The notes below the pieces were generated by a model. The model saw only the letters and a list, made by a program, of their open reading frames with translations, was not told the origin of the DNA and ran no database searches. Made by a program: the position numbers and the translations under genes. A stretch of DNA of 64,000 nucleotides from Olivibacter sp. SDN3 (GTDB lineage: Bacteria > Bacteroidota > Bacteroidia > Sphingobacteriales > Sphingobacteriaceae): NCBI RefSeq assembly GCF_014334135.1, contig NZ_CP060497.1, forward strand, positions 3,906,001-3,970,000. Reading direction: 5' to 3'. Below, one piece after another: positions 3,685 through 7,194 of this stretch. The stretch's first letter is position 1. Every line of letters begins with the position of its first letter.

Positions 3685-3715
3685 GGAAGGCGCAAAGGTA
3701 AAGCTAATAATTAAT

Positions 3716-3757
3716 AAAAGCAAGCTTATGCAAAATAATTTTACAAAGCCTGCTTTT
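3716..3757 (-). terminator. intrinsic terminator after the glucosylglycerol operon
   Basis: Arms 3716-3727 and 3746-3757 pair over 12 bases with one G-U pair. On the minus strand the stem is followed by a T-rich tract (CTTTTATTAATTATT). It lies directly after the stop codon of the HAD-GT20 gene and separates it from the helicase gene. Confidence 0.65.
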
Positions 3758-3759
3758 AT

Positions 3760-6006
3760 TTATGCTTTTGCCGCAGCTTCCAATTCGTGGATGAACTCTT
3801 TGCCCCAATGTTCAATGTCATAATGGCTCACAGTCTCATAGAGCCTTTGGATGCGTAATTTGCGGTCGCCAGCCTCCATGGTAAGAGCCTGTAACAGGCT
3901 TTCCTTCATGTTTTTCGGATCGTAAGGATTGGTCAGGATCGCGTAGGGAAGTTCCACCGATGCGCCCGCAAATTCTGAGATAACCAGTACGCCGTTAGCA
4001 TCTTTATTTAGTCCTTGAACGGCTACGTACTCTTTGGCAACAAGGTTAAGCCCGTCTCGTAGTGGAGTTATCCATGCGATGTCGGCGATGGCGTAGTAAG
4101 TGATTACCTCCTCAAAGGGCACCGATCGGAAAAAAAATCGTATAGGTGTCCATTCTAGACTTGAATATTTGCCGTTTATTTCCCCAACAGCCTGCTCCAG
4201 CTCTCTTTGCGTTTTTTCATAGATTTTCATTCCCTGAGAGGGCGGGGTACAGATATTAATAAGTTCTATTTTGCCATGAAACTCCGGATACTCTTCCAAA
4301 AACTCACCAAATGCTTCTATTTTTTCTAGAGGTCCTTTGACGTAATCCAGTCGTTCAACAGATAAGACGATGTGTTTACCCTGTGTTCTTTTTTTCAGGC
4401 TTTCTATACGTTGTTGTGTTTTCTTCTGATGATAGATGCGTGTGATATTTTTAATATTGACTCCTACGGGTTGCGCGCCAAGCCTTATACGCCGGTTGCC
4501 AACCTCTATTTCTTTGGTCATTTGATCGATGCCCAAGGCGCAGCTATACGTGAGGAATTGTTTTGCTGCATTGATTTTCTTTATCACGTTTACTGGAGAA
4601 TGACTACGCAATACATCTACAAAATTTTCGACGTATCGCGGAATATGAAAACTTACAAAATCACATTGTAATAGACTTCCTATTATTTCCCGACGCCAGG
4701 GGATGATGTTGAATATATCCGCAGGGGGAAAGGCTGTATGGTGAAAGAAACCTATTTTAACATCGGGTCGTAATTGTCGTAAAAAGGCAGGTACCATCCA
4801 TAAATTATATTCATGTACCCAAACAAGTGCTCCTTGGTCAGCTTCTTCAGCTACGCGCTCGGCAAATAGCTTATTTATCCTTACATAATGTGCCCAATGT
4901 TCATGATTGAATTTCGCCCGATCGATAAATGAAAAAATGGTTGGCCAAAAGGCCTCTTTAGAGAACACTCTGTAAAAAAGATCGATGTCCTTTTTAGGAA
5001 GTGATATAATTGAAGCTGTTAAGTTGGGATATTTTTTCTCATCAATGAATTGTTTTTTAACGGCGCGGCTAGTATGTTTATTCTTTTCTTCCTCTTCTCC
5101 AACCCAAACTCCTGGCCGTCCATTCTCGAAAAAGCCCAGTAAAGAAGGTATAATGCCGTTAGGACTTTTGGGAGGAACTCTTATTTCTTCATCATTTATA
5201 ATTTCCTTATCAAATGGTAGGCGGTGGTATACCATCAATAGCTGAGGTTCTCCCGCCTGCTTGCTTTTTTTTGCCTTTTTTGCTTCTCTATAATAACTTT
5301 TAAACGCTGGGTAATGTAACATTGATTCCAAAATGCCTCCCGCGCCTTCTGCTTTTGCATGATAGGTGTTTTTTAATTGTGCGGTTGCATCTATCAGAAG
5401 TGGTTCTGCTCTTCCTACGACAACGCCTTTATAATCAGTTTCATATAAAGACAAGTCGTTCATCGTATCGCCGGCAACCAATACCATGTCTGGTGGAAAG
5501 TTGAGTGTTTTAACTAATTGTTTTAAGGTTTCCCCCTTGTTAATTCCACCGGGAAGAATATCTAAATATTGTCCGGCTGATAGGAGTACATCACAACCGT
5601 ATTTAGCAGCAATTTCTTCGATAGCTTTGATGTCGGTATCCTTTTCATAGTAGAACGAGCATCGGCGCTGCTGCGGTACTTCTTGAAATTGTAGGCCCTC
5701 GATGTGCTGTAGTTCGTCACGAAAGGTAAATATGCCAGGCCATTTCTTTTCAATTTGAGACTGTATAGGTTCTATAGGCTCCATTGTTCTACCATTTAAT
5801 ATAGTAGCACCCACGTCGCATATAATATAATCAGGATTGGGGATGATAGGGTCGTTTAATAACGGCATGACCGATTCTAACCCTCTGCCTGTTACAAACG
5901 CCAGGCGTATATCCTGGTGTTTTTGAATGAGTCGATATAAGTTTAATCGATCTACATTCTTTCCACCTAAAAACGTTCCGTCTAGATCTGTAGCAAGTAA
6001 CATCAT
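3760..6006 (-). CDS. ggpPS: bifunctional glucosylglycerol-phosphate synthase/phosphatase (HAD-GT20 fusion)
   Basis: Predicted to join ADP-glucose and glycerol-3-phosphate and then remove the phosphate, giving glucosylglycerol, a compatible solute. Residues 1 to about 240 are a HAD-IIB phosphatase domain (motif I DLDGT at 8-12, a GDTMNDLSL motif near 200). Residues from about 255 to 748 are a GT20 domain. Within it I see features I know from cyanobacterial GgpS and not OtsA: YHRLPFDKE, KSPNGIIPSLLGFF (near 280), FSKEAFWP, HIPRYVENFV and DIAWITPLRDGLNLVAKEYV. OtsA proteins have a GGL motif in place of KSPNGI. The upstream neighbour gpsA would supply the acceptor glycerol-3-phosphate. Automated pipelines may call this trehalose-6-phosphate synthase/phosphatase, which remains the alternative. 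Confidence 0.85.
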   Translation of the reverse strand: MMLLATDLDGTFLGGKNVDRLNLYRLIQKHQDIRLAFVTGRGLESVMPLLNDPIIPNPDYIICDVGATILNGRTMEPIEPIQSQIEKKWPGIFTFRDELQHIEGLQFQEVPQQRRCSFYYEKDTDIKAIEEIAAKYGCDVLLSAGQYLDILPGGINKGETLKQLVKTLNFPPDMVLVAGDTMNDLSLYETDYKGVVVGRAEPLLIDATAQLKNTYHAKAEGAGGILESMLHYPAFKSYYREAKKAKKSKQAGEPQLLMVYHRLPFDKEIINDEEIRVPPKSPNGIIPSLLGFFENGRPGVWVGEEEEKNKHTSRAVKKQFIDEKKYPNLTASIISLPKKDIDLFYRVFSKEAFWPTIFSFIDRAKFNHEHWAHYVRINKLFAERVAEEADQGALVWVHEYNLWMVPAFLRQLRPDVKIGFFHHTAFPPADIFNIIPWRREIIGSLLQCDFVSFHIPRYVENFVDVLRSHSPVNVIKKINAAKQFLTYSCALGIDQMTKEIEVGNRRIRLGAQPVGVNIKNITRIYHQKKTQQRIESLKKRTQGKHIVLSVERLDYVKGPLEKIEAFGEFLEEYPEFHGKIELINICTPPSQGMKIYEKTQRELEQAVGEINGKYSSLEWTPIRFFFRSVPFEEVITYYAIADIAWITPLRDGLNLVAKEYVAVQGLNKDANGVLVISEFAGASVELPYAILTNPYDPKNMKESLLQALTMEAGDRKLRIQRLYETVSHYDIEHWGKEFIHELEAAAKA

Positions 6007-6071
6007 ATTGTTTTTTTTTAAGGTAAATTTGTTTTTGTTTTAATTTTAAAGCTGCAATAGAAGATTAGGTA

Positions 6072-7061
6072 TTACAGCAGCTGGCTTTCCAGTATTTTAA
6101 ATTCAACGTAGGGAGAAATATGATTATGCAAAATACGATATACTGTAGAGACAATAGGTGTATGCGCCCGTATTTTTTTTGCTACCTCATAAATTCCTTT
6201 TGCGGCGTTATATCCTTCTGCAACCATGCTCATTTGTGATTTAGCCAGCTGTACAGAGTAACCTCTTCCAATCATTTCTCCGAAAGTTCTGTTACGACTG
6301 AAATTAGAATAGGCGGTTACCAGCAAATCGCCTAAATAGGCGGATGTGGCTATTTTAATGGAATCTAGTTTTAAGGAGTTGAGAAATTGCGACAGTTCAT
6401 TGATCGCATTCGAAACAATCACCGCCTGAAAATTATCGCCGTAGTTAAGTCCTTTTGCTATTCCACAGGCTATACCGATAATATTTTTGTAAATAGCAGC
6501 ATACTCTATACCAATAGGATCATTGCTAGTATGTGTTACCAGATAGGAAGAATTGATGGATTGTTGGAGTTCCTGAGCAAATTTCTGGTTTCTTGACGCT
6601 ATAGTGATATAGGTTTTGCGTTCCATGGCAATTTCTTCTGCATGACAAGGGCCCGCTATGATGGCTTGTTGATCCATGCTTATTCCGAAGCGATCCGCTA
6701 GGTAGGAGGAAGGCAAAACATGTTGTCCATTTAAGGTGCCTTTAATTGAAGTGATGATTCTCTTATTCACGACATCCCCAGGAGTTATTTCGCTCGCGAC
6801 TCCCGCTAAATAGGCACTTGGAACAGCGAAGAGAAGAATTTCAGCTTGTTGGATTACTTCATCTAAGTGGTGAGAAGCAGATATGTGTTGCATAGGAAGT
6901 TGGAGATAACTAAGGTAATTCTTATTCCTTCCAGATTCTAAGAGGCTGTCAACGTATTCTTTTTTTCGTAGGTACCAGGCTATATCAATTTTGTTTTCAG
7001 CAAAAATCTTAATTAAAGCAGTGGCCCAGCTGCCGCCCCCAATCACACTAATTTTTTTCAA
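6072..7061 (-). CDS. gpsA: NAD(P)-dependent glycerol-3-phosphate dehydrogenase
   Basis: Reduces dihydroxyacetone phosphate to sn-glycerol-3-phosphate in the cytoplasm, for phospholipids and here probably also for glucosylglycerol. The 329-residue protein has the Rossmann motif GGGSWATA (8-15), the SIKG motif, GPCHAEE, and the KNIIGIACGIAKGLNYGDN segment with the catalytic lysine near residue 190. The start is a TTG; the protein family begins at this point and no ATG is in frame nearby. Its stop is 65 bases before the HAD-GT20 gene on the same strand with no terminator between, which supports co-transcription. Confidence 0.92.
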   Translation of the reverse strand: MKKISVIGGGSWATALIKIFAENKIDIAWYLRKKEYVDSLLESGRNKNYLSYLQLPMQHISASHHLDEVIQQAEILLFAVPSAYLAGVASEITPGDVVNKRIITSIKGTLNGQHVLPSSYLADRFGISMDQQAIIAGPCHAEEIAMERKTYITIASRNQKFAQELQQSINSSYLVTHTSNDPIGIEYAAIYKNIIGIACGIAKGLNYGDNFQAVIVSNAINELSQFLNSLKLDSIKIATSAYLGDLLVTAYSNFSRNRTFGEMIGRGYSVQLAKSQMSMVAEGYNAAKGIYEVAKKIRAHTPIVSTVYRILHNHISPYVEFKILESQLL

Positions 7062-7164
7062 TCTTTCGCGGAGTTAAATGGTGAAACTTTAAGACGGAAC
7101 TTTACTTAATACGTAAGGCCCCTAATACGAAGATTGCAAATATAGTTAAAATAGCGCGTATATC

Positions 7165-7194
7165 AAAAAAAAGCCGCCCCAGGGATAGGGCGGC
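7165..7194 (-). terminator. intrinsic terminator of the DUF4397 gene
   Basis: GCCGCCC and GGGCGGC (7173-7179, 7188-7194) form a perfect GC stem with an 8-base loop; on the minus strand it is followed by eight T residues. It ends transcription coming from 7233-7964, leaving gpsA with its own promoter. Confidence 0.92.

Follow-up and report, generated by a model that had tools for sequence, protein, structure and literature searches.

A two-gene operon of the Bacteroidota that probably makes glucosylglycerol and carries its own glycerol-3-phosphate dehydrogenase

What does a glycosyltransferase of family 20 (GT20) make when it is fused to a phosphatase and encoded directly behind gpsA, a gene for glycerol-3-phosphate dehydrogenase? 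The question is raised by a locus of Olivibacter sp. SDN3, whose genome is a single contig of 6.12 Mb (NZ_CP060497.1). The whole stretch of DNA analysed here, termed the window, comprises 64,000 nucleotides of that contig (positions 3,906,001 to 3,970,000), and coordinates refer to it unless a contig is named. An earlier note on this DNA proposed that gpsA and a HAD-GT20 fusion, here named ggpPS, constitute a glucosylglycerol operon. Both genes are present as proposed, as open reading frames (ORFs) and by Pfam, and we consider it very likely that the pair makes the salt protectant glucosylglycerol. This is the best reading of the locus because a curated hidden Markov model (HMM), the phylogenetic tree, an acceptor-site residue, the phosphatase type and a conserved, dedicated gpsA all speak for it. 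The features that the argument needs are the following.

3760..6006, minus strand: ggpPS, predicted fused glucosylglycerol-3-phosphate phosphatase / glucosylglycerol-phosphate synthase (ORF, Pfam, TIGR02398)
5311..6003, minus strand: HAD-IIB phosphatase domain of S6PP type, aa 2-232 (Pfam S6PP, 180.8 bits)
3778..5241, minus strand: GT20 domain, aa 256-743 (Pfam Glyco_transf_20, 451.7 bits; trees)
4237..4239, minus strand: codon of Ser590, the counterpart of Arg300 in E. coli OtsA (alignment)
4810-4812, within ggpPS: aa 399 (Glu), the equivalent of OtsA Asp130 (alignment to OtsA)
6072..7061, minus strand: gpsA, predicted NAD(P)H-dependent glycerol-3-phosphate dehydrogenase, one of two copies that the genome has (ORF, Pfam, linked clade)

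The ggpPS reading frame starts with ATG and encodes 748 amino acids. Its phosphatase is N-terminal and its synthase C-terminal, as the earlier note had read it, and this is the order of a fused GgpPS in one protein. The 329-residue product of gpsA, read from a TTG start, contains both NAD_Gly3P_dh domains detected by Pfam, in agreement with the note's view of the gene directly upstream as the maker of glycerol-3-phosphate. Relatives of GgpPS at E <= 1e-150 occur in 63 of 399 genomes of the host's family, in four of its 25 genera. There are 64 such places in these 63 genomes; the 61 that were fetched make up, together with seven loci from named records, the locus set of 68, and a second copy (G780:C155) and two partial ones (G713 and G665) lie outside it. 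The seven named-record relatives, which derive from two Chitinophagaceae metagenome-assembled genomes (MAGs), two Hydrotalea species and three Bacteroidota MAGs, are 61-66% identical to ggpPS; Hydrotalea flava and H. sandarakina also have gpsA paired with ggpPS. The AlphaFold model (pLDDT 67, pTM 0.49) was too poor and was not used.

The GgpS equivalog model TIGR02398 matches the fusion with 622.9 bits, above its cut-off of 569, whereas the OtsA model TIGR02400 gives 424.7 bits, below its cut-off of 564.85. The OtsAB fusion model reaches 457.7 bits against a cut-off of 634, and the trehalose-6-phosphate phosphatase (T6PP) models gave no match on the fusion at E values up to 0.01. The TIGR02398 cut-off is also passed by all three other fusions and all three alphaproteobacterial GgpS that were scored; the divergent protein of genome G019 obtains 580.6 bits and that of Hydrotalea sandarakina 645. 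The earlier note had expected pipelines to call such a protein a trehalose enzyme. This expectation is not borne out, since with TIGR02398 passed and the OtsA model failed the NCBI pipeline would name a glucosylglycerol-phosphate synthase; Pfam alone would name the product 'Glycosyltransferase family 20'. Three motifs that the note had likened to those of cyanobacterial enzymes, SPNGI.P, SKEAFWP and HIPRY, are present in the protein, slightly varied in the three alphaproteobacterial GgpS and absent from the four OtsA rows aligned, while the cyanobacterial likeness itself was checked solely through TIGR02398. The genome encodes a separate OtsAB fusion, which scores 971 bits with the OtsAB model, 561.6 with the OtsA model and 375.2 with the GgpS model, which gives the host a probable route to trehalose too. 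We also note that this OtsAB fusion (G000:C1:1509740-1511113, locus L001, G000 being the genome of the window) lies beside a putative gene that we take, from its sequence, to be ribosomal protein S16-like.

A GT20 tree was computed from 85 domains, including 27 of 66 fusions (15 chosen, 12 random). Its OtsA side comprises 53 rows, namely five named OtsA and 48 other Bacteroidota GT20 rows, two of which (L020, L063) are the same gene. These 53 rows are split by a branch of length 1.48 with 100/100 support from the GgpS side, which holds the 27 fusions, the three alphaproteobacterial GgpS and two actinobacterial HAD-GT20 fusions. Long-branch rows were flagged; when seven of them are dropped (78 rows), the split still has 100/100 support and E. 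coli OtsA is still long. The GT20 domain of the window thus lies outside the OtsA clade; a position inside it is what the earlier note had named as refuting its proposal.

The acceptor site reveals the same division. Arg300 of E. coli OtsA binds glucose-6-phosphate, and Arg9, Tyr76 and Trp85 are likewise contacts (PMC1769515). Residues were counted in the fusions of 66 of the 68 loci, the partial L037 and L194 being excluded. The position of Arg300 is occupied by Ser in 58 and by Ala in eight of the 66 fusions, with Ser in the window, and by Asn or Ala in the three alphaproteobacterial GgpS; all 53 OtsA-side rows have Arg there. No gap occurs in the alignment of the window protein with E. coli OtsA within the 25 columns preceding and the 34 columns following this position. 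Arg9, Tyr76 and Trp85 are retained in 66/66 fusions, as are the donor-site residues Arg262, Lys267, Asp361 and Glu369; the placement of OtsA Trp40 on the alignment is uncertain, so it was left unused. The fusions further have HR instead of NR at the domain start and NG instead of GG further on. The H and the N are found in all 66 fusions and all three alphaproteobacterial GgpS, while 52 of the 53 OtsA-side rows show N at the first of these two positions and 51 show G at the second. The first residue counts of the other GT20 loci covered 36 of 49; 12 of the missing 13 were added for the tree and the recount, with L047 excluded.

The two actinobacterial HAD-GT20 fusions, at L075:5899-8133 (Kitasatospora plasmid) and L198:2965-5076 (Streptomyces plasmid), are annotated merely as 'HAD-IIB family hydrolase'. 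They fall on the GgpS side of the tree, obtain TIGR02398 scores of 323.7 and 291.6, far under 569, and have Glu at the Arg300 position. They are possibly a third kind of enzyme.

In the phosphatase domain of the window protein, the HAD motifs DLDGT, VTGRG, NKG and GDxxND are intact and the catalytic residues D7, D9, T39, K157, D180 and D184 are all present. These residues are conserved in 65-67 of 68 rows; the exceptions are gaps, apart from one row that differs at D9. Since the motifs are intact and the catalytic residues conserved, the domain is probably active. By Pfam it is of the S6PP type, and at E values up to 0.01 the T6PP models gave no match that would make it an OtsB-type trehalose-phosphatase.

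The next gene upstream of GgpPS on the same strand is gpsA in 47 of the 68 loci, among which L037 has no upstream sequence. The upstream gene is full length in 45 of the 47; the short ones are those of L034 (248 aa) and L174 (an 87-aa open frame). The gap from gpsA to the GgpPS match is -4 or +1 bp in 38 of the 47 and 65 bp in the window, and the spacing of the pair is operon-like. Control stretches at a distance of 100 kb in the same genomes (40 in all) contain no gpsA, and neither do the 49 other GT20 loci (shorter stretches, 4.1 kb on average). A GpsA tree of 59 sequences, comprising 30 of the 47 linked copies, 26 housekeeping copies (L091 left out) and three alphaproteobacterial ones, unites the 30 linked copies in one clade (99/100) apart from the 26 housekeeping copies. 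Copy numbers of gpsA were determined for the genomes behind 44 of the 68 loci. Two gpsA are present in 23/23 genomes with an intact linked copy, one in 20/20 GgpPS genomes without a linked copy, and one in the genome of L034 with its shortened linked copy; the 19 genomes that lack GgpPS each have a single gpsA, except for one with none. The window genome has two. Judged by sequence, the linked gpsA is a paralogue dedicated to ggpPS, not the housekeeping copy. On a quick tree of GgpPS at least eight (starred branches) to ten switches between presence and absence of gpsA are needed, which repeated loss would explain most simply.

The other, housekeeping gpsA of the window genome has its match at G000:C1:3905027-3905998, just left of the window, with its frame still open there. 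It is ~6 kb from the linked gpsA and either spans the first base of the window or lies just in front of it. At L034 (~5274-6020) the linked gpsA is shortened to the 248-aa frame beside an intact ggpPS, and the sister locus L033 is without gpsA.

These features suggest a simple route, in which gpsA and ggpPS would be one transcription unit for the compatible solute 2-O-alpha-glucosylglycerol. GpsA would convert dihydroxyacetone phosphate to sn-glycerol-3-phosphate, the GT20 domain would glucosylate this glycerol-3-phosphate with a nucleotide sugar as donor, probably ADP-glucose and possibly UDP-glucose, and the fused HAD domain would then strip the phosphate. The gene glgC, for ADP-glucose, is present in the genome. 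As the gpsA paralogue is kept with ggpPS, the acceptor would be made on demand rather than taken from lipid synthesis: a dedicated copy, regulated with the synthase, could supply glycerol-3-phosphate when the solute is needed under salt or drying, and lipid synthesis would not be drained.

The surroundings of the loci were examined for an osmotic context. Salt-related neighbours were found in 12 of the 40 loci with a same-genome control and in none of the 40 controls, controls being available for 40 of the 68 loci and several of the counted loci being near kin. The families in those 12 loci are MscS (5), BCCT (3), Trk/Ktr (1) and KefB (6). Over all 68 loci, 20 have salt-related neighbours, with OsmC and MscL in two. 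The window operon's own neighbours are not osmotic genes. At L085, L187, L189, L190 and L194, the GgpPS match is followed, 32-42 nt beyond its end, by a putative mscS read in the same direction. The five mscS-linked loci probably represent one event, and may have the enzyme that makes a solute and the channel that releases it in a common operon.

Several observations weigh against the assignment to glucosylglycerol. The genome's own OtsAB passes the OtsAB-fusion model and narrowly misses the OtsA cut-off too (561.6 vs 564.85), so that a missed OtsA cut-off is weak evidence when taken alone. The GgpS rows of the tree are annotated or model-named, with none experimentally proven and no cyanobacterial row among them. 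As regards the donor, Asp130 of OtsA is listed among the UDP-glucose contacts (PMC1769515); it is replaced by Glu in 62/66 fusions and is Asp in 3/3 alphaproteobacterial GgpS. An upstream gpsA is missing from 20 of the 67 loci with upstream sequence, and the linked gpsA is therefore not essential to the pathway. The salt families were picked after the neighbourhoods had been viewed, with query proteins taken from them, and six of the 12 loci with salt-related neighbours rest on KefB alone; because of this post hoc choice and the kinship of loci, the neighbour count serves as support only. TIGR03852, a sucrose phosphorylase model taken as nearest to glucosylglycerol (GG) phosphorylase, is unmatched in the genome, where no search for GghA was made.

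Three other explanations were weighed. The fusion could be a trehalose-6-phosphate synthase/phosphatase in reversed domain order with gpsA as an incidental neighbour, and membership of the GT20 family and the retention of R9, Y76 and W85 in 66/66 fusions would agree with that. Against it stand the OtsA model under its cut-off, the lack of any trehalose-phosphatase match at E values up to 0.01, the position of the fusion outside the OtsA side of the tree, the loss of Arg300 in 66/66 fusions, the separate OtsAB of the genome and the upkeep of gpsA as a dedicated paralogue. We regard this explanation as highly improbable, and a trehalose synthase identity was rejected on HMM scores, Arg300 loss and GT20 trees. 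It is somewhat less improbable, but still unlikely, that the fusion makes another glycosyl-glycerol from glycerol-3-phosphate, such as galactosyl-glycerol of the floridoside type, with a donor other than ADP-/UDP-glucose and the same acceptor and phosphatase step. Red algal GT20-like enzymes make floridoside. The linkage to gpsA fixes the acceptor better than the donor, and the donor contact Asp130 is Glu in 62/66 fusions (PMC1769515). The locus would then be a self-contained mobile solute cassette of Bacteroidota, in which the Asp130-to-Glu exchange marks another sugar donor and the product is not alpha-glucosylglycerol; we give this version little credence. Against it, the glucosylglycerol equivalog model is passed, also by the divergent G019 (580.6) and Hydrotalea sandarakina (645), and donor-site Arg262, Lys267, Asp361 and Glu369 are retained in 66/66.

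The third explanation accepts a glycosyl-glycerol as the product and denies it the role of an osmolyte, making it stored carbon, a product for excretion or the precursor from which a glycolipid or polymer is built. In its favour, the neighbours in the window (putative DUF4397-type, DEAD-box, FtsK and gamma-glutamyltransferase-like genes) are not osmotic genes, and neighbours other than gpsA vary between genomes. However, MscS follows 32-42 nt 3' of the GgpPS match in 5/68 loci, BCCT, Trk/Ktr, OsmC and MscL occur elsewhere (families chosen post hoc), and the fused phosphatase would strip the phosphate that a lipid route keeps. A non-osmolyte product seems very unlikely to us. Synthesis of glucosylglycerol is the explanation supported by the HMM, the tree, the acceptor-site residue, the phosphatase type and the dedicated gpsA, in line with the operon that the earlier note had proposed.

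How did the operon come to its present place? In a draw of 395 genomes from the phylum, the TIGR02398 cut-off was passed in two, the window genome itself and G019 of the same family. The four GgpPS of the host's own genus do not form one clade (approximately unbiased (AU) test, p 1.7e-52). By contrast, the five genomes of that genus are united by their housekeeping gpsA (100/92). A stretch of DEAD-box, DUF4397-type and FtsK genes carries gpsA-ggpPS in the window genome (G000) and ggpPS alone in G004. In G001 and G003 the same stretch is closed, without the cassette, and ggpPS is located elsewhere; G002, of the same genus, is uninformative on the empty site, its DEAD-box and FtsK genes being on different contigs. 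The non-monophyly of the own-genus GgpPS and the closed sites in G001 and G003 indicate that the cassette very probably moved within the family. A scan of viral contigs found no relative; among phages, distant GT20 matches occur in four records, and in two of these the gene is annotated as otsA.

The following elements may delimit the transcript.

7137..7167, minus strand: promoter-like TTTG-N19-TAnnTTTG, 76 nt before the gpsA start (pattern scan)
7173..7194, minus strand: terminator-like hairpin ending the gene before the operon (consensus scan; fold z -2.80)
3713..3760, minus strand: hairpin directly 3' of the ggpPS stop (fold z -3.75; 0/200 shuffles as stable)

The promoter-like pattern, which we take to be the consensus of Bacteroidota, has seven matches in the window against 3.97 expected, with seven or more in 7 of 100 shuffles. 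Taken by itself the match is weak, so that only the position of the site at 7137..7167 speaks for it. The consensus scan for terminators gave four sites against 3.6 expected from shuffles. The hairpin at 3713..3760 is missing from the list of that scan and is likely the end of the transcript.

If the assignment is correct, dozens of sequenced Bacteroidota (63/399 family genomes) would produce glucosylglycerol, which in the literature consulted has so far been described from cyanobacteria and some Proteobacteria. In engineered Synechococcus, glycerol-3-phosphate seems to be limiting for GG, and an added glycerol-3-phosphate dehydrogenase raises GG (PMC8168540). The operon would be a natural answer to this biotechnological limit, in which glycerol-3-phosphate supply caps the glucosylglycerol yield (PMC8168540), and the gpsA-ggpPS pair is a module for testing that supply. 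Where only 'GT20' is reported, the loss of Arg300 and the presence of HR and NG in place of NR and GG are annotation marks that set these proteins apart from OtsA. A survey of titles and abstract openings in the open-access literature found no published glucosylglycerol pathway in Bacteroidota, and the passages available from the open-access literature on glucosylglycerol and gpsA contain no gpsA-ggpPS-like Bacteroidota operon.

With OtsA and OtsAB, the window enzyme shares the GT20 family and most of the donor site, and it differs from them in Arg300, in the type and placement of the phosphatase and in its side of the tree. In cyanobacteria, GgpS, an ADP-glucose enzyme, and GgpP are encoded by two genes in nearly all cases (PMC10873239; PMC6753628), and Nostoc ellipsosporum NOK, with a fused ggpPS, is unlike nearly all others (PMC10873239). 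The family TIGR02398 and the predicted reactions are the same in the window, which has one fused gene instead of two. Plasmids of Dinoroseobacter shibae and Falsirhodobacter algicola and pTM3 of Tistrella mobilis have the genes in the same order, gpsA-ggpP-ggpS, in three of three alphaproteobacterial loci, but phosphatase and synthase are separate genes there (as annotated in D. shibae and F. algicola, and by ORF reading in the unannotated Tistrella). The GgpS of D. shibae and F. algicola are 39-41% identical to the window protein over the GT20 part, and the alphaproteobacterial linked gpsA are merely 24-26% identical to the window gpsA. A single origin of the gpsA linkage in Bacteroidota and Alphaproteobacteria is compatible with the data (AU p 0.325), as are two.

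The closest counterparts are the fused GgpPS of Stenotrophomonas, Pseudomonas, Azotobacter and Marinobacter, with an N-terminal phosphatase and a C-terminal synthase (PMC10873239). In S. rhizophila, ggpS is up 8.3-fold with salt and GG is produced, and the transporter gene ycaD is co-induced with ggpS (PMC3653106); in Marinobacter a GG phosphorylase gene lies 3' of ggpPS (PMC10873239). The domain order in a single protein is the same as in the window, so the fusion with an N-terminal phosphatase has precedents (PMC10873239), and the fused GgpPS is a known kind of enzyme. The window enzyme differs from the proteobacterial ones in its origin from Bacteroidota and in the dedicated gpsA in front of it; this home of the enzyme among the Bacteroidota and the private GpsA paralogue kept beside ggpPS are what appears to be new.

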